From NCBI GenBank assembly GCA_019359115.1, contig JAHHHW010000095.1:1-55022 (forward strand): a DNA stretch of 55,022 nucleotides, read 5' to 3'. Position 1 is the first letter of the stretch; the number at the start of each line of letters is the position of its first letter. The notes beneath the pieces are model-generated. The model was not told where the DNA came from. It saw only the letters and a program-made list of their open reading frames with translations, and ran no database searches. A program made the translations under genes and the position numbers. The stretch is from Pelatocladus maniniholoensis HA4357-MV3 (lineage in GTDB: Bacteria > Cyanobacteriota > Cyanobacteriia > Cyanobacteriales > Nostocaceae). Below are positions 160 through 54,898 of this stretch, piece by piece.

Positions 160-654
<495 letters not shown>

Positions 655-659
655 TAATT

Positions 660-769
660 GTTGCCGTACCCTAATCGCGGAAGCTTACATACTCCTAATA
701 TAAGCAAAAAAACAGAGTCTACGTCTGAAGCCGTCTTCAGGCTTATGCTTCCTCTACTTGTGCGGCAAT
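660..769 (+). ncRNA. Y RNA-like non-coding RNA, copy 1
   Basis: The two ends pair perfectly: 660-669 (GTTGCCGTAC) with 760-769 (GTGCGGCAAT), ten base pairs. Inside are stacked helices 679-684/747-752 (GGAAGC/GCTTCC), 700-705/741-746 (ATAAGC/GCTTAT) and a hairpin 725-730/735-740 (CTGAAG/CTTCAG). A second copy follows at 832-957. The terminal stems of the two copies differ at several positions but remain paired, with three double compensatory changes. CCCTAA on the 5' side and ACTTG(C/T)GCGG on the 3' side are shared. The long terminal stem, large internal loop and position just upstream of a Ro60-like gene match bacterial Y RNAs; Deinococcus has two Y RNA genes beside rsr. The structure is seen; the Y RNA identity is inference. 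Confidence 0.7.
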
Positions 770-831
770 CTTAATACTAAGTCTAAATGTAGCATTTGAT
801 ATCCAAGCTTCTTGCAGTTACAACAGTAGTT

Positions 832-957
832 GTCACCGCGCCCTAACAGAAAAAGCTTACATACTAGCTCAATTGGTAGAGCAGTCGGCTATTAACCGAT
901 GGTAATAGGTTCAATTCCTGTGTATAAACCAATAGCTTTCTCAACTTGCGCGGTGAT
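832..957 (+). ncRNA. Y RNA-like RNA, copy 2, with complete tRNA-like module (YrlA-like)
   Basis: Terminal stem 832-841/948-957 (GTCACCGCGC/GCGCGGTGAT) is ten base pairs, continued by 852-857/934-939 (AAAGCT/AGCTTT). On top sits a cloverleaf at 858-928 resembling tRNA-Asn: D arm 867-882 with GG in the loop, anticodon-like arm 884-900 with loop CTATTAA, four-base variable loop, and T arm 905-921 with loop TTCAATT. The invariant tRNA positions U8, A14, G18G19, U33, T54T55C56 and A58 are all present. The acceptor stem keeps only about four contiguous pairs and the anticodon would be AUU, which is not a normal bacterial tRNA-Asn. YrlA-type bacterial Y RNAs carry tRNA-mimicking modules, so this is best read as the partner RNA of the adjacent Ro60-like protein. 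Confidence 0.75.
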
Positions 958-1018
958 TTCATTCACCTCGTAGCATGTGACAACTACACTCCACGGTTTT
1001 AGATTTTGGTTGCAATAA

Positions 1019-2551: not shown

Positions 2552-2746
2552 TTAAGAGCGGAAACGTTTCTTATACCGCCGGGAATTAGCAACCGCTTTA
2601 GCTTTCCGCTTGTTTTTCTCAAGAGGAGTTTCAAAGTGACGATGTTTCTTTAAGTCAGGCATAATTCCCGCCTTTGAAACTTGGCGTTTAAATCGACGTA
2701 AAGCTGACTCAAGTGCTTCGTTTTCGCCCACTACTATTTGGGTCAT
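2552..2746 (-). CDS. rpsU: 30S ribosomal protein S21
   Basis: A 64-residue basic protein with the full S21 pattern: [19 protein letters not shown] near the start, then [18 protein letters not shown] and an Arg/Lys-rich tail. S21 is a small-subunit protein near the 3' end of 16S rRNA, involved in initiation. It lies 238 bp downstream of the RRM protein gene on the same strand. This RRM-protein/S21 pairing is a known cold-regulated arrangement in Anabaena. A separate terminator-like hairpin at 2930-2950 suggests the two can also be transcribed separately. Confidence 0.97.
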
Positions 2747-2922
2747 TCTATCTCCTACTTAGATATTACTACTGGATAGCGGTCAGTTCATAAACATTTT
2801 ATTTGCTTTTTTGGTGAGGGGAAAAGTAAGGGAATACTCAACTAATGTTTTCCTGTTTACCTCAAAACCGAAAATTTGCCATTCAAATGCACTTTTTCTT
2901 CGTCAATCCAGTCAACTGAGAA

Positions 2923-2950
2923 CAAAAATGGGCAGACTCCTAGCCTGCCC
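2923..2950 (-). terminator. Rho-independent terminator of the RRM protein gene
   Basis: Read on the minus strand: GGGCAG, loop, CTGCCC (2930-2935 with 2945-2950), then ATTTTTGTTC. It begins 35 bases beyond the stop of the RRM gene. Partial read-through would join rpsU to that transcript. Confidence 0.7.
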
Positions 2951-2984
2951 AAGAGACTTAAAAGTTAAACTTTGTTTTTAAAGT

Positions 2985-3299
2985 TTAGTAACGACGGGAG
3001 TATCCTCCGCCATTATTTCCGCCACGTCTACCACCACCACCAAAGGAACCTCCCTCTGATTTTGGTCTTGCTTTATTAACTTTCAGACTACGACCCATCC
3101 ATTCAGCAGTATCAAGCGCTTCAATTGCCGCAGCTTCTTCTGCCTCTGATCCCATTTCTACAAAGGCGAATCCTCGCACACGACCTGTTTCGCGGTCTAC
3201 AGGTAATTGAACGCTTTTAACCGTTCCATACTCTGAGAACACCTGCTTGAGGTCATCTTGTTCAACCTCATAGGAAAGGTTACCAACGTAAATCGACAT
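2985..3299 (-). CDS. Glycine-rich RRM RNA-binding protein (Rbp family)
   Basis: A 104-residue protein. One RRM spans residues 1-80 with RNP2 (IYVGNL) and RNP1 (RGFAFVEM), followed by a Gly/Arg-rich tail (GGGGRRGGNNGGGYSRRY). It is the cyanobacterial homologue type of eukaryotic glycine-rich RNA-binding proteins; family members are often cold-induced and bind U-rich RNA. It sits upstream of rpsU on the same strand, as in Anabaena rbpA1-rpsU. The 160-bp leader between it and the divergent vWA gene is AT-rich and could carry cold regulation, but no specific box was identified. Which Rbp paralogue it is cannot be told from this window. Confidence 0.93.
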   Translation of the reverse strand: MSIYVGNLSYEVEQDDLKQVFSEYGTVKSVQLPVDRETGRVRGFAFVEMGSEAEEAAAIEALDTAEWMGRSLKVNKARPKSEGGSFGGGGRRGGNNGGGYSRRY

Positions 3300-3458
3300 A
3301 AAACATCTCCAGAATCACATGGCGTAGAGTTTTAGATCCGGAGAAGTCTGTAATATAAGTACAAATAAAAACAAACCGCACAACCGAATTTAAACTTCCG
3401 TTCATAGTTTATCACAAATTTGTAAGATTCAAGCAAGTTAATTAATATTCAAAATTCC

Positions 3459-4286
3459 ATGAAACCTCTTAATTACGTTGACTTGTGCTTTGTTGTAGAT
3501 ACAACTGGCAGTATGGGTAGTTTTATTCAGTCAGCACAGCAACAATTACTAAATGCCATCAAGGTGCTGTCAACTAATAGTAATATTGATTTGCAGATTG
3601 GTTTGGTAGAATACCGCGACCATCCTCCACAAGATAACTCTTTTGTTACCCGTGTTTATTCGCTTACGCCTAAATTGCAACTAATGCAGAAAGTCATCAA
3701 TCAACTCAGAGCTGATGGTGGTGGTGATGGGCCGGAAGCATTATATAGCGGTGTCTACGACGCTTGTACAAAAATGAATTGGCGTCGGCACAGTTGCCGT
3801 TTCATTTTACTTGTAGGTGATGCACCACCTCATGGATTTGGCAAATGGCTACAAGAAAAAATGTTTGATGGGCGCAAGTATCATAATGGTGATGCTTGGC
3901 CTGATGCTTGTCCTAGTGGGTTGGATGTCCAGTCAATAACTGCAACGGCAGAAAATCACCAAGTTATTATTCATGGATTATGTATGAGTGGTGATATGCT
4001 GGCACAACAAGCATTCAGGACAATCGCTCAAATTACAGGTGGTCAATGTGTAGCAGTTACCAATGCCAAAGATGTGATCGATAAAATTGTAGGTGTATTG
4101 CAAAATGAATTCTCTAATTTGGAGTTTGACCAAAAAATCTTGGAAACTGTGCAGCAAATAGGACATTTAGATAGCAGTAAAACTGCTGAAATTTTAGATA
4201 TGCCAAGATTACCAGTTGCTGGTGCGATCGCTCGGTTGGGTAAGCGGGGTTTCTTTGACCATCTCATCAAAGCGCGATCGCGTTGA
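3459..4286 (+). CDS. von Willebrand factor A domain protein
   Basis: A 275-residue cytoplasmic protein. The vWA domain covers residues ~7-205, opening with VDLCFVVDTTGSMGSF, a MIDAS of the DxTxS type at residues 14-18. A GDGPEALYSGV segment follows in the place of the second metal-binding loop. The last ~70 residues form a short helical tail (GHLDSSKTAEILDMPRLPVAG). Such proteins bind a divalent metal and a protein partner; the partner is unknown. It is the second vWA protein in 4 kb, but its sequence is not close to the Ro60-like one and it has no TROVE region. Its 3' end overlaps the convergent gene by 20 bp, including a HIP1 octamer. Confidence 0.85.
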   Translation: MKPLNYVDLCFVVDTTGSMGSFIQSAQQQLLNAIKVLSTNSNIDLQIGLVEYRDHPPQDNSFVTRVYSLTPKLQLMQKVINQLRADGGGDGPEALYSGVYDACTKMNWRRHSCRFILLVGDAPPHGFGKWLQEKMFDGRKYHNGDAWPDACPSGLDVQSITATAENHQVIIHGLCMSGDMLAQQAFRTIAQITGGQCVAVTNAKDVIDKIVGVLQNEFSNLEFDQKILETVQQIGHLDSSKTAEILDMPRLPVAGAIARLGKRGFFDHLIKARSR

Positions 4287-6218: not shown

Positions 6219-7072
6219 GATAGAAAAGCTCTATTTAGGACATAGGGCTAGCACCCTGTTTATAATCTCTACCAAGAACTAAAAGACTAACCGGAGCAAA
6301 ATATGTTACTTGTAAAACTTCGTAAGGAAGTATTGCTGACGTGTAATTACTTATGAGCTTGTGTTAAACAAATAAAAATTCATTATTAAACCTGATTTTA
6401 TGTAAAAATTACGACATTTCAACTTTGTCAACGGTTAAAAGTTAAATTTAACTTCTCAGTTATTCTACATCAGGCTTTAGCCAAAGCGATCGCATACCTA
6501 ATAAATGTTTCAACTGTAATATTAAGTACCACTCTCACAGAAAGTTACAATTTTTGATATTAATGCAGTTCAATCAGTTCTGATCGCGACTCCAAAATTG
6601 AGTAACTTGACACATTTACTACTAATGTAGTATTTTGTAATCTCTTGTAAAATTACCTTTTGAGGTAGGGTCATAATTCATAGCAGTTTCAATCATTGTT
6701 AACCTTGGCAAAACGTCTCTCGGTTGACTACATAATTCAAATTTATTTTTAGTAATGTAGAAAAATTATCTCAAATTTACTGCTTGCGTGTCCCAACAGT
6801 TCAGAGCTTACATACATAGTATGAGAGGAAATGTACCGTTACTCAAAAGCGGTGGGTGCGTAGACACAAGGAAATTACTAAGAATCTGGGAGGTTGGCTT
6901 AAAAGTAGCTATCCTTGAAAGAGTGTGTAATAACTCACCAGTGGAGTTTTTTCTATGTGATAGACGCTTTGCTCTGGCGACTTACACGCAAGTAGTTTAT
7001 TTTATGAAAAAGTATAATTTAAAGACGTGCATCTGTTGAATATAAATCCATTAAAATTGCATTATAGAAAAT
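6219..7072. other. Gene-free 850-bp interval containing a 23S-like RNA element
   Basis: No convincing protein gene. The left two thirds, upstream of the divergent minD, is AT-rich with one HIP1 site and no clear motif. The right third contains the 58-nt L11-binding-domain-like sequence at 6885-6942. Around it, 6869-6879 can pair with 6945-6954, and ACATAG near 6814 with CTATGT at 6953-6958. A TTGACT at 6724 could be a -35 element, but the best -10 candidate (TAGTAA) is about 20 bp away, so a promoter is uncertain. Confidence 0.5.
6885..6942 (+). ncRNA. Stand-alone mimic of the 23S rRNA L11-binding (GTPase-associated) domain
   Basis: This 58-nt stretch aligns without gaps to E. coli 23S rRNA 1051-1108 (recalled from memory) with 43 identities. 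It includes GGTTGGCTTA, AAAGAG and GTAATAACTCAC, and the positions equivalent to A1067 and A1095. Relative to E. coli the changes are compensated: 1053-1106 C-G to U-A, 1054-1105 A-U to G-C, 1058-1080 U-A to G-C, and 1092-1099 C-G to U-A together with 1072 C to U, the known covarying triple. No other 23S segment is recognisable around it, so it is not part of an rRNA operon. It ends 130 bp before the AAA gene at 7073 and could be its leader or a separate RNA. Confidence 0.6.
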
Positions 7073-8275
7073 ATGGAATTTGATTACTTCAGACACAATG
7101 AAGGTTCTCCTGTTAATAACAACCGCCAAAGTTTACTCTCCAGTGGTTGGCGACCTTTGCAACGGGAATTTGACTGGGATTTTTTAGGTCAACTGATGTT
7201 TAGTGACACACAGGAGTTAACTCAAAAAAGTCTAAATTTAGCAAGTAGCATTGCCGAGACATTGGGACGCAATAATTATACTTGGTGGGCAAATTTATTA
7301 AATATTGTTTCCGAAAATACGCGCTACGAAGTTGAAAAATATTGAAACTATATCACACCAGATCCACTAACACCTGATTACCGTTACCAGGATGTTTTAA
7401 ATACAGACACACCCATTACTCAGTTTGTCAATCGTAACAGTATTCCCATTGACTATGTTCTCAATCGCCTGCAAGAAATTACGGTGATGCGGGTTTTAAA
7501 ACTATTAGGAACTCCTGATATTATCACCCAATATTATTTAGAAAGGAATTTTTATTTTCCCATCGATAAATTTGTGAATTGGGAGCGACTAGATATCATT
7601 AATACTGTTTATGCATACTGGTCAAAAGATGATGTATGGTTACAAATTGATCCCTATGACCGAGGACGACGACACTATAGTTTGATGGGAAAAAACTTAT
7701 CTCCATTAATTAACAAAGCAACTTATAATTTAGCAATCATGTTGAGTGGATATCAAAGTCGTGTTGGTAAGGTACAAAACCAATTTAAAATTCGCACCTT
7801 TCCAGAAAATATTCAAAATTTTACTGACATAGTTCAGCAGACAGTTTTGAATCAACATCAATTAGCGGTTTTAGTACATGGTAAACCAGGAACAGGTAAA
7901 ACTGCGTGGACACAAGCATTCGCCAAAGAAGTTTTGGTCTCACTTGGCTTTGTGATTTTTATTTTGGATCATGATGCGATCGCCAATTTTGTACCACCTA
8001 CATACTTAGAGCGAATTTGTATTATTATTAATGAGGCAGACAATTTAGCTCAAGACCGTGCTAGCGAAATCGCACAACAAAGTAACAAGACTGAGCATAT
8101 TTTAAGCTTGCTAGATGGCACTTTGTACCAAAGTGTTGCTGACGATTCTGGAATTCAAATACAACAAAGGTTGGTAGTACTGATGACTTGTAACACCACA
8201 GAAAGACTAGATCCTGCGATGTTGCGTCGAGGTAGGGTAGATTTAATATATGAATTTACTCATTTATTTGTTTAA
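7073..8275 (+). pseudogene. AAA ATPase interrupted by one in-frame TGA
   Basis: One reading frame runs from ATG 7073 to the stop at 8275 (about 400 codons) with a single TGA at 7343-7345. Codons on both sides stay coding-like: before it ...TRYEVEKY, after it NYITPDPLTPDYRYQDV. The C-terminal half is a P-loop ATPase: Walker A GKPGTGKTAW, a Walker B-like CIIINEADNLA (Asn in place of Asp), a sensor-1-like MTCNTTE and MLRRGRVD. One base change (TGG to TGA) would explain the stop, so the gene is recently inactivated, read through, or expressed as two pieces (the second could start near 7484). It heads a same-strand run with Nudix, AAA and GNAT genes, only 8 bp before the Nudix gene. Confidence 0.75.
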
Positions 8276-54728: not shown

Positions 54729-54898
54729 GTTTCAATCCCTAATAGGGATTAATGTTAGTTGCAACGCTAATTCCGAAATTGTTGGCTGAGGGACATCAAG
54801 TTTCAATCCCTAATAGGGATTAATGTTAGTTGCAACAAAAAGTTTAGTTCTGTTCATAAGGAATTATCAGTTTCAATCCCTAATAGGGATTAATGTTA
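54729..54898 (-). CRISPR. Short CRISPR array, third repeat truncated
   Basis: Two complete 37-bp repeats (54729-54765, 54800-54836) and a third cut at 29 bp (54870-54898). Each begins GTTTCAATCCCTAATAGGGA and the full ones end GTTAGTTGCAAC; the AATCCCTA-TAGGGATT part is an internal palindrome. Spacers are 54766-54799 (34 bp) and 54837-54869 (33 bp). Read on the minus strand the repeat ends in GGGATTGAAAC, the usual 3' tag of cyanobacterial type I/III repeats, so crRNAs are probably minus-strand and the truncated repeat faces the leader side. No cas gene is in the window. Confidence 0.93.

Follow-up and report, generated by a model that had tools for sequence, protein, structure and literature searches.

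We analysed a stretch of 55,022 nucleotides (nt) from the cyanobacterium Pelatocladus maniniholoensis HA4357-MV3 (contig JAHHHW010000095.1; hereafter the window), in which two tandem RNA genes, RNA1 and RNA2, lie at positions 660-957 upstream of a gene for a Ro60-like protein. The two are members of a family of RNAs that share one covarying frame and exchange the insert it carries, which may resemble a tRNA, a circularly permuted tRNA or segments of 23S rRNA. These frame RNAs are linked to the Ro-like gene, co-occur with it among cyanobacterial genomes, and diversify in their anticodon arms. The best reading of these observations, to which we would give a little less than an even chance, is that a divergent Ro60-like protein has these as its Y-type RNAs, and that they act as decoys or baits of translation RNAs.

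A first-pass annotation had described a pair of Y RNA-like genes with compensated terminal stems, and what it had read in the sequence is there. In RNA1, nucleotides 660-669 (GTTGCCGTAC) pair with 760-769 (GTGCGGCAAT), and in RNA2, 832-841 (GTCACCGCGC) pair with 948-957 (GCGCGGTGAT), at 10/10 positions in each case when G-U is counted. Exactly as it had claimed, three stem pairs change on both sides from RNA1 to RNA2 (T-A to C-G at position 3, G-C to A-T at position 4 and A-T to G-C at position 9), a G-U pair at position 8 (T-G) becomes C-G, and the loop words CCCTAA and ACTTGYGCGG are common to both copies. Folding of the single sequences gives both stems, with z-scores of -4.1 (0/200 shuffles as good) and -3.0 (1/200). 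The minus strand of RNA2 has a z-score of -4.4, stronger than the plus strand, so the strand is not fixed by single folds. The description as a pair proved too small, as RNA1 and RNA2 belong to a diverse array; the earlier reading had also overlooked the tRNA domain in RNA2, a third member at 6782-6993 with 23S mimics (RNA3), and that the neighbouring protein is without detectable TROVE.

A protein search gave 41 loci encoding relatives of the Ro-like neighbour. An initial script picked out 109 frame RNAs. A relaxed scan, whose pattern was widened after members had been seen, covered 45 stretches (loci L002-L045 and the window's first 12 kb) and found 171 frame RNAs, distributed over 41 stretches. 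Every one lies on the plus strand as oriented here, with 0 on the minus strand and 0 in a reversed-sequence control. The frame consists, in order, of the 10-bp terminal stem, a 5' internal loop that is mostly CCYAAC or near it, a second stem close to AAAGCT/AGCTTT, and TACATAC; the 3' word ACTTG or ACTTA is present in 169/171 members. Since membership needed at least 8 of 10 terminal pairs (10 are formed in 115 members, 9 in 35 and 8 in 21), the terminal helix was favoured by selection; helices 2-6 were unselected. At least one frame RNA, and up to nine, accompanies the Ro-like gene in 39/43 loci. Of the four loci without one, L037, L038 and L040 have the gene at the edge of the available DNA, and L041 gives a partial match. 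The window's own genome has five frame RNAs, three in the window and two on contig C9; AGCTTACAYAC sites on contigs C136 and C139 were rejected as members, their best stems having 7 and 0 of 10 pairs.

Covariation in the frame was measured on 35 RNAs (of 48 distinct ones) with tRNA-like inserts, our class A. Their 36-bp structure is 96.5% paired versus 81.7% in shuffles, the covariation score is 0.477 versus 0.181, and two-sided cells number 196 versus 54.6; the number of pairs with a two-sided change, a less telling measure, is 18 versus 15.3 and was reached by 26/500 shuffles. The terminal pairing, whose loss among orthologous loci would have told against the first-pass annotation, is kept, with two-sided changes in 7/10 terminal pairs.

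The 171 inserts comprise class A (70), class B/b (permuted tRNA, 28), class C (11), class D (9), class E (short, 33) and 20 unclassified ones, some of which look by eye like anticodon-like hairpins or damaged class A or B inserts. By ARAGORN the 70 class A inserts have 26 anticodons, with an anticodon stem of at least 4/5 pairs in 70 and U33 in 64; the modules are fused to the frame, without a free 3' end. RNA2 belongs to this class and is predicted to be a mimic of tRNA-Asn. Our model R1 scores it at 131 bits and the Rfam tRNA model at 45.2 bits, and its anticodon arm is that of the genome's own tRNA-Asn(gtt) with the sole change of G34 to A. A plain tRNA gene was ruled out for RNA2: the covarying frame continues its acceptor, which is about 4 bp long rather than 7 bp with a free CCA end, and it scores under 39 other tRNA matches, the two class A RNAs of this genome being the lowest scoring of 41. 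RNA1, whose hairpin insert recurs in L005-L008 and L016 (Fischerella/Westiellopsis), matched no known RNA family in Rfam. Similarity to rRNA was not above shuffles for RNA1, RNA2, the short or unclassified inserts of L033 and L004 (4420), or L043 (1913).

Class B/b, assigned by a pairing rule, has the layout of a circularly permuted tRNA: a T arm, a 7-bp acceptor closed by a loop, then a D arm. After rotation, done without a shuffled control, ARAGORN accepts 9/28. In 20 class B/b members picked by eye, 15/28 predicted pairs show two-sided changes, including 5/7 acceptor pairs; the consensus fold of these 20 predicts neither a D arm nor a common anticodon-arm hairpin, and by eye many class B members have an extra hairpin at the place of the anticodon arm.

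Class C was sorted by the 23S word of H70. The four members tested align to 23S rRNA around what we take to be H69-H71, with 24/26 to 29/33 positions identical, well above shuffles, and outside this region the likeness is loose. We do not claim a circular permutation at H69, as the natural order scored equal to or better than the permuted one in 11 members. Class D was sorted by the sarcin-ricin word AGTAYGAGAGGA with up to one change allowed; the loop is exact in 9/9 members, though the word also served to sort them. These RNAs also carry the GTPase-associated centre, and their alignment folds to its three-helix junction, with two-sided changes in 16/49 pairs; similarity to 23S rRNA in this class, too, is well above shuffles. 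RNA3 is the class D member of the window (Table 1). Because the genome's own 23S rRNA was not found in the assembly, the Calothrix 23S (L069) was taken as reference, to which the GTPase-centre part of RNA3 is identical at 43/50 positions (score 65 versus a shuffle maximum of 28). The Rfam large-subunit (LSU) model matched the class D RNA of L029 as well, at 51.0 bits. RNA3 and classes C and D are not parts of an rRNA gene, as they hold isolated segments only, in class D in the order sarcin-ricin loop, then GTPase centre.

Several loci contain further oddities. By eye, small palindromic T-loop inserts occur in class A-like RNAs at L012 413-561, L020 2313-2473 and L009 1465-1615. At L027 2394-2602 and L004 3171-3335, a tRNA has its anticodon arm swapped for a whole frame RNA, with 7/7 acceptor and 5/5 T-arm pairs; L029 at about 3280-3490 looks alike by eye, where the script gave no match. 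The frame RNA inside the split tRNA has its own tRNA-like insert in L027 and L029. An 84-nt tmRNA-like domain without a reading frame was noted at L029 3184-3267 and L027 2250-2333 (Rfam tmRNA 45.4 and 42.0 bits, gathering score 47). A Dolichospermum plasmid (NZ_CP051207.1, 66404-66561; L107) has a class D-like match near ThiF and hypothetical genes, as in L027.

Between close orthologues, anticodon arms diversify more than most of the RNA. We compared two sets of six related sequences each, pairwise and with no tree. In the first set, made up of close orthologues of RNA2, the anticodon arm shows 0.231 differences per site and pair, versus 0.000-0.055 elsewhere. In the set of the type found on contig C9 it shows 0.173, versus 0.042-0.150 in other regions, with the D arm at 0.150; here the stem is nearly constant and the anticodons are TCG, GCA, GAA, TCC, TCG and GCA.

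The neighbouring protein is, on its predicted structure and the Pfam matches of its relatives, probably a divergent Ro60-like protein. The AlphaFold model (predicted local distance difference test score 83.8, predicted template modelling score 0.76) has 19 helices followed by a vWA-like alternation of strands and helices, and D300, S302, S304, T362 and D386 are invariant in an alignment of 22 relatives. Pfam vWA_Ro60 matches 3/22 relatives, at best with E 1.7e-5, the window protein itself giving just VWA_2 (E 0.004). Pfam TROVE had no match in the 22 relatives, the window protein being included in the scan, and TROVE chains in the PDB match the protein at E 0.1-0.25 only.

For co-occurrence, 292 cyanobacterial genomes were searched with model R1; as all 292/292 match through ordinary tRNAs, at least 90 bits were required. 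Among the matches listed, 16 genomes had a class A match of this strength. The protein was tested in 80 genomes, made up of the 16 with such a match and 64 that were picked by kinship from the remaining 276, and the Ro-like gene was found in 15/16 class A genomes versus 3/64 others (Fisher p 1.9e-12, relatedness ignored). The class A genome without the gene is G278; the copy in G074 has two stops and those in G103 and G229 are in two pieces. Below the class A cut-off the gene was found in G125 and G167 (partial) and G116 (full length). A metagenome-assembled genome labelled Acidobacteria has a tRNA array, four frame RNAs and the Ro-like gene. From the linkage and co-occurrence we propose that the Ro-like protein would bind the frame RNAs.

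How far the RNAs may be called Y RNA-like, as the first pass had it, can now be stated more closely. The covarying terminal stem, the adjacency to the gene, the vWA_Ro60 matches in the neighbour's family and sister RNAs that match Rfam YrlA (RF02553) support the name well; RNA1 and RNA2 themselves match no Y family in Rfam, YrlA giving none up to E 10. The sister matches are several class B RNAs with 31-42 bits, one of them at E 2.7e-8 in a 221-nt search, and neither they nor RNA1 and RNA2 reach the gathering score of 69 bits. Compared by eye with the YrlA consensus, the frame RNAs have the same terminal stem, an internal loop with the 3' word AcUuG, a middle stem and a tRNA-like module. The paired-end terminal stem is conserved, on which members were selected; a tRNA-mimic module is present in RNA2 and 69 others by ARAGORN and in permuted form in 28, and is absent from RNA1 and RNA3. 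Class B and YrlA share the permuted order of T arm, closed acceptor and D arm, and bacterial Y RNA has been superposed on tRNA, allowing for a circular permutation (PMC11472068). In contrast to YrlA, the frame RNAs fall under the Rfam cut-off, class A is unpermuted, classes C and D carry rRNA, and up to nine members stand at one locus. The neighbouring protein is like Ro60/Rsr in its predicted helical N-terminal part, its vWA-like part with DxSxS and its adjacent Y-like RNAs, and differs in the TROVE results given above. With the Salmonella rsr-yrlBA-rtcBA operon (PMC7790460) the locus shares a Ro-like protein and tRNA-mimic Y RNAs; however, Pfam found no RtcB among seven window neighbours, and control here is possibly by TrcR and not RtcR. 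The trn operon and TrcR regulon of Anabaena (PMC10272220) is similar in that other cyanobacterial tRNA arrays hold or flank frame RNAs and the operator word is identical; the sections of that study considered here describe tRNAs and protein genes, and a text search of it for Ro60, TROVE and L12 gave 0 matches. Titles and the beginnings of abstracts described no rRNA-mimic Y RNAs or cyanobacterial Y arrays, from which we do not claim absence from print. Two exact pattern scans of viral contigs for carriage by phages gave no match.

If the RNAs are decoys, as we prefer to think, the common frame (terminal stem, CCYAAC/AACTTG internal loop and second stem) would be the handle for the protein, and the insert would reproduce in miniature an RNA site at which translation comes under attack or control, be it an anticodon arm, a complete or permuted tRNA, H69-H71, or the sarcin-ricin loop with the GTPase-associated centre. 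The set would probably be made under translation stress. Its members, as decoys, would compete for RNases and other toxins (or hostile factors) that act on tRNA and 23S rRNA, and a captured partner may then be kept or passed on by Ro. Decoy action is suggested by which sites are copied, by the fusion of the module ends to the frame, by the variability of the anticodons and by a linked stalk protein, and the covariation in frame, tRNA-like, permuted and class D modules supports it. L7/L12-like genes within the arrays (16 open reading frames (ORFs) in 15 loci, among them L029 4423-4803 and L009 3899-4306, and absent from the window; Pfam confirmed two) would fit a stalk mimic. Known toxins attack the sarcin-ricin loop, H70 and anticodon loops. 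That the tRNA-like domain of YrlA might competitively inhibit an anticodon nuclease has been named as a possibility (Hughes 2020, PMC7790460). More specifically, and only tentatively, we suggest that the array is a repertoire of decoys that keeps diversifying: on a scaffold of Ro type, exchangeable heads would copy each vulnerable site of translation (anticodon arms that are exchanged from strain to strain, H69-H71, and the sarcin-ricin loop plus the stalk base, completed by an L7/L12-like protein) so as to absorb RNA-targeting toxins. Several results weigh against decoy action. No toxin or target is known here, the RNAs being known from sequence alone, and some inserts (RNA1 and many short ones) resemble nothing recognised. 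As many as 59/70 class A loops are not identical to the loop of any of 31 tRNAs from the window's genome. The operator word of TrcR is enriched weakly by count, 58 versus 32 for a control word. PADLOC, run on ten proteins, matched only four (two AAA, one Nudix and one HNH), the AAA and Nudix matches being those near the window; the best was the IetA ATPase model, for an AAA protein, at 83 bits, and NCBIfam IteA gave 74.8 of 510, far under the cut-off. Rfam LSU (E up to 0.01) matched no class C RNA in L009, L010, L011, L024, L027 and L029 and, in larger searches, missed the class D RNAs of L004, L027 and L042; the assignment of class C and of these three as 23S mimics is made by direct 23S alignment.

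The inserts might instead be adaptors for quality control, each recruiting the enzymes or proteins that know its site (PNPase, tRNA and rRNA processing and modification enzymes, L11, L12) to RNA on the Ro-like protein, as a Y RNA does with PNPase in Deinococcus. The resemblance of class B to YrlA, which reportedly tethers PNPase and is a substrate of DusA and TruB (PMC8394870), is in favour of this, as is the protein with a poly(A)-polymerase head whose gene adjoins the Ro-like gene in Kovacikia; we consider it rather unlikely. Adaptors would need neither fast-changing anticodons nor the sarcin-ricin loop and GTPase centre in one RNA. It is improbable, in our estimate, that the RNAs are regulatory sponges, which in stress would titrate translation factors, synthetases or modification enzymes by means of their mimics of tRNAs and factor sites. 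Class D does join two 23S elements from the site where translation factors act, and 15 loci have linked L7/L12-like proteins, but permuted tRNAs and isolated anticodon hairpins are explained less well. Slightly less probable again is that they are damage sensors, in which Ro would be released, or the leader of the Ro mRNA and repair genes switched, when a Y RNA copy is cleaved and not when it is bound. The repair operon of Salmonella, whose genes include those for Ro and Y RNAs, is activated by tRNA fragments (PMC7790460), and an alternative helix in the Ro leader (Table 1) is kept with different base pairs in different loci; yet this helix is significant (p<0.05, ungapped test) in just 11/29 loci, six of them a close Fischerella group. 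That the modules are captured tRNA or rRNA fragments without function we regard as very improbable. The extra T-loop hairpins of some members and the loose 23S likeness of class C outside H69-H71 would agree with it, whereas the compensatory changes in three module types, with the pairing kept, and the linkage to the gene speak against it.

Control by TrcR is likely for some frame RNAs, judging from the distribution of its operator word, and is putative for RNA1 and RNA2. TrcR is a repressor of rtcB and of the trn operon in Anabaena, and translation stress turns the trn operon on (PMC10272220). The word TGTAGTAT begins 11-25 nt before the class D RNA in 4/9 cases, and a small ORF of about 66 amino acids (aa), present in 25 loci, has it within 710 nt in 17/23 (of 25 clustered), versus 10/23 for a control word. 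The alternative leader helix upstream of the Ro-like gene could possibly serve autoregulation. In the same study (PMC10272220), all0263 (AAA ATPase) and all0262 (threonine dehydratase) are among the genes raised in a trcR mutant, and by description they are like the genes 3' of RNA3, which are AAA ATPases, a Nudix gene and a threonine dehydratase-like gene, the last by inspection.

Table 1. Features of the window around the frame RNAs and the Ro60-like gene
Feature	Positions	Strand	Remarks
148-aa ORF	208..654	+	no known family; relatives in 17/43 clustered sources, window included
RNA1	660..769	+	frame RNA; 10-bp terminal stem; hairpin insert matching no recognised family
Alternative helix, 5' arm	826..836	+	competes with first 5 nt of the RNA2 stem; p=0.003 here
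RNA2	832..957	+	class A frame RNA; tRNA-like domain joined via short ATAC/GTAT acceptor
tRNA-like domain of RNA2	858..930	+	ARAGORN tRNA-Asn(att)
Alternative helix, 3' arm	977..987	+	upstream of Ro-like gene
Ro60-like protein, 477 aa	1052..2485	+	helical N-terminal part; C-terminal vWA with DxSxS motif
TGTAGTAT, TrcR operator word of Anabaena 7120	6626..6633	+	156 nt upstream of RNA3
RNA3	6782..6993	+	class D frame RNA, 212 nt; 10-bp stem; two predicted 23S rRNA mimics
Sarcin-ricin loop mimic TAGTATGAGAGGA	6817..6829	+	12/13 identical to Calothrix 23S; too short alone to beat shuffles
GTPase-associated centre (L11-binding) mimic	6871..6953	+	LSU_rRNA_bacteria 51.2 bits, E 1.2e-14

Directly behind the Ro-like gene, on the minus strand at 2552-3299, lie ribosomal S21 and a gene for an RNA-binding protein with an RNA recognition motif (RRM). 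Other loci have tRNA arrays nearby in some cases, and HNH and ThiF genes are also near. The consecutive ORFs 7073-7345 and 7484-8275, the second AAA-like, are perhaps one interrupted gene. Two CRISPR-DR5 repeats stand at the end of the window (54729-54836, minus strand).

One frame with many heads and many recognisable translation sites amounts to a natural module-swap experiment, in which decoy, tether and sensor models are directly testable. The findings suggest that some RNAs annotated as tRNAs are something else, here 2/41 tRNA matches in the genome, and they bear on roles of bacterial Y RNAs beyond the tethering of PNPase. If the RNAs do form a set of decoys, they would make up a layer that protects ribosomes and tRNAs, and would offer small mimics of rRNA sites as a natural toolkit.
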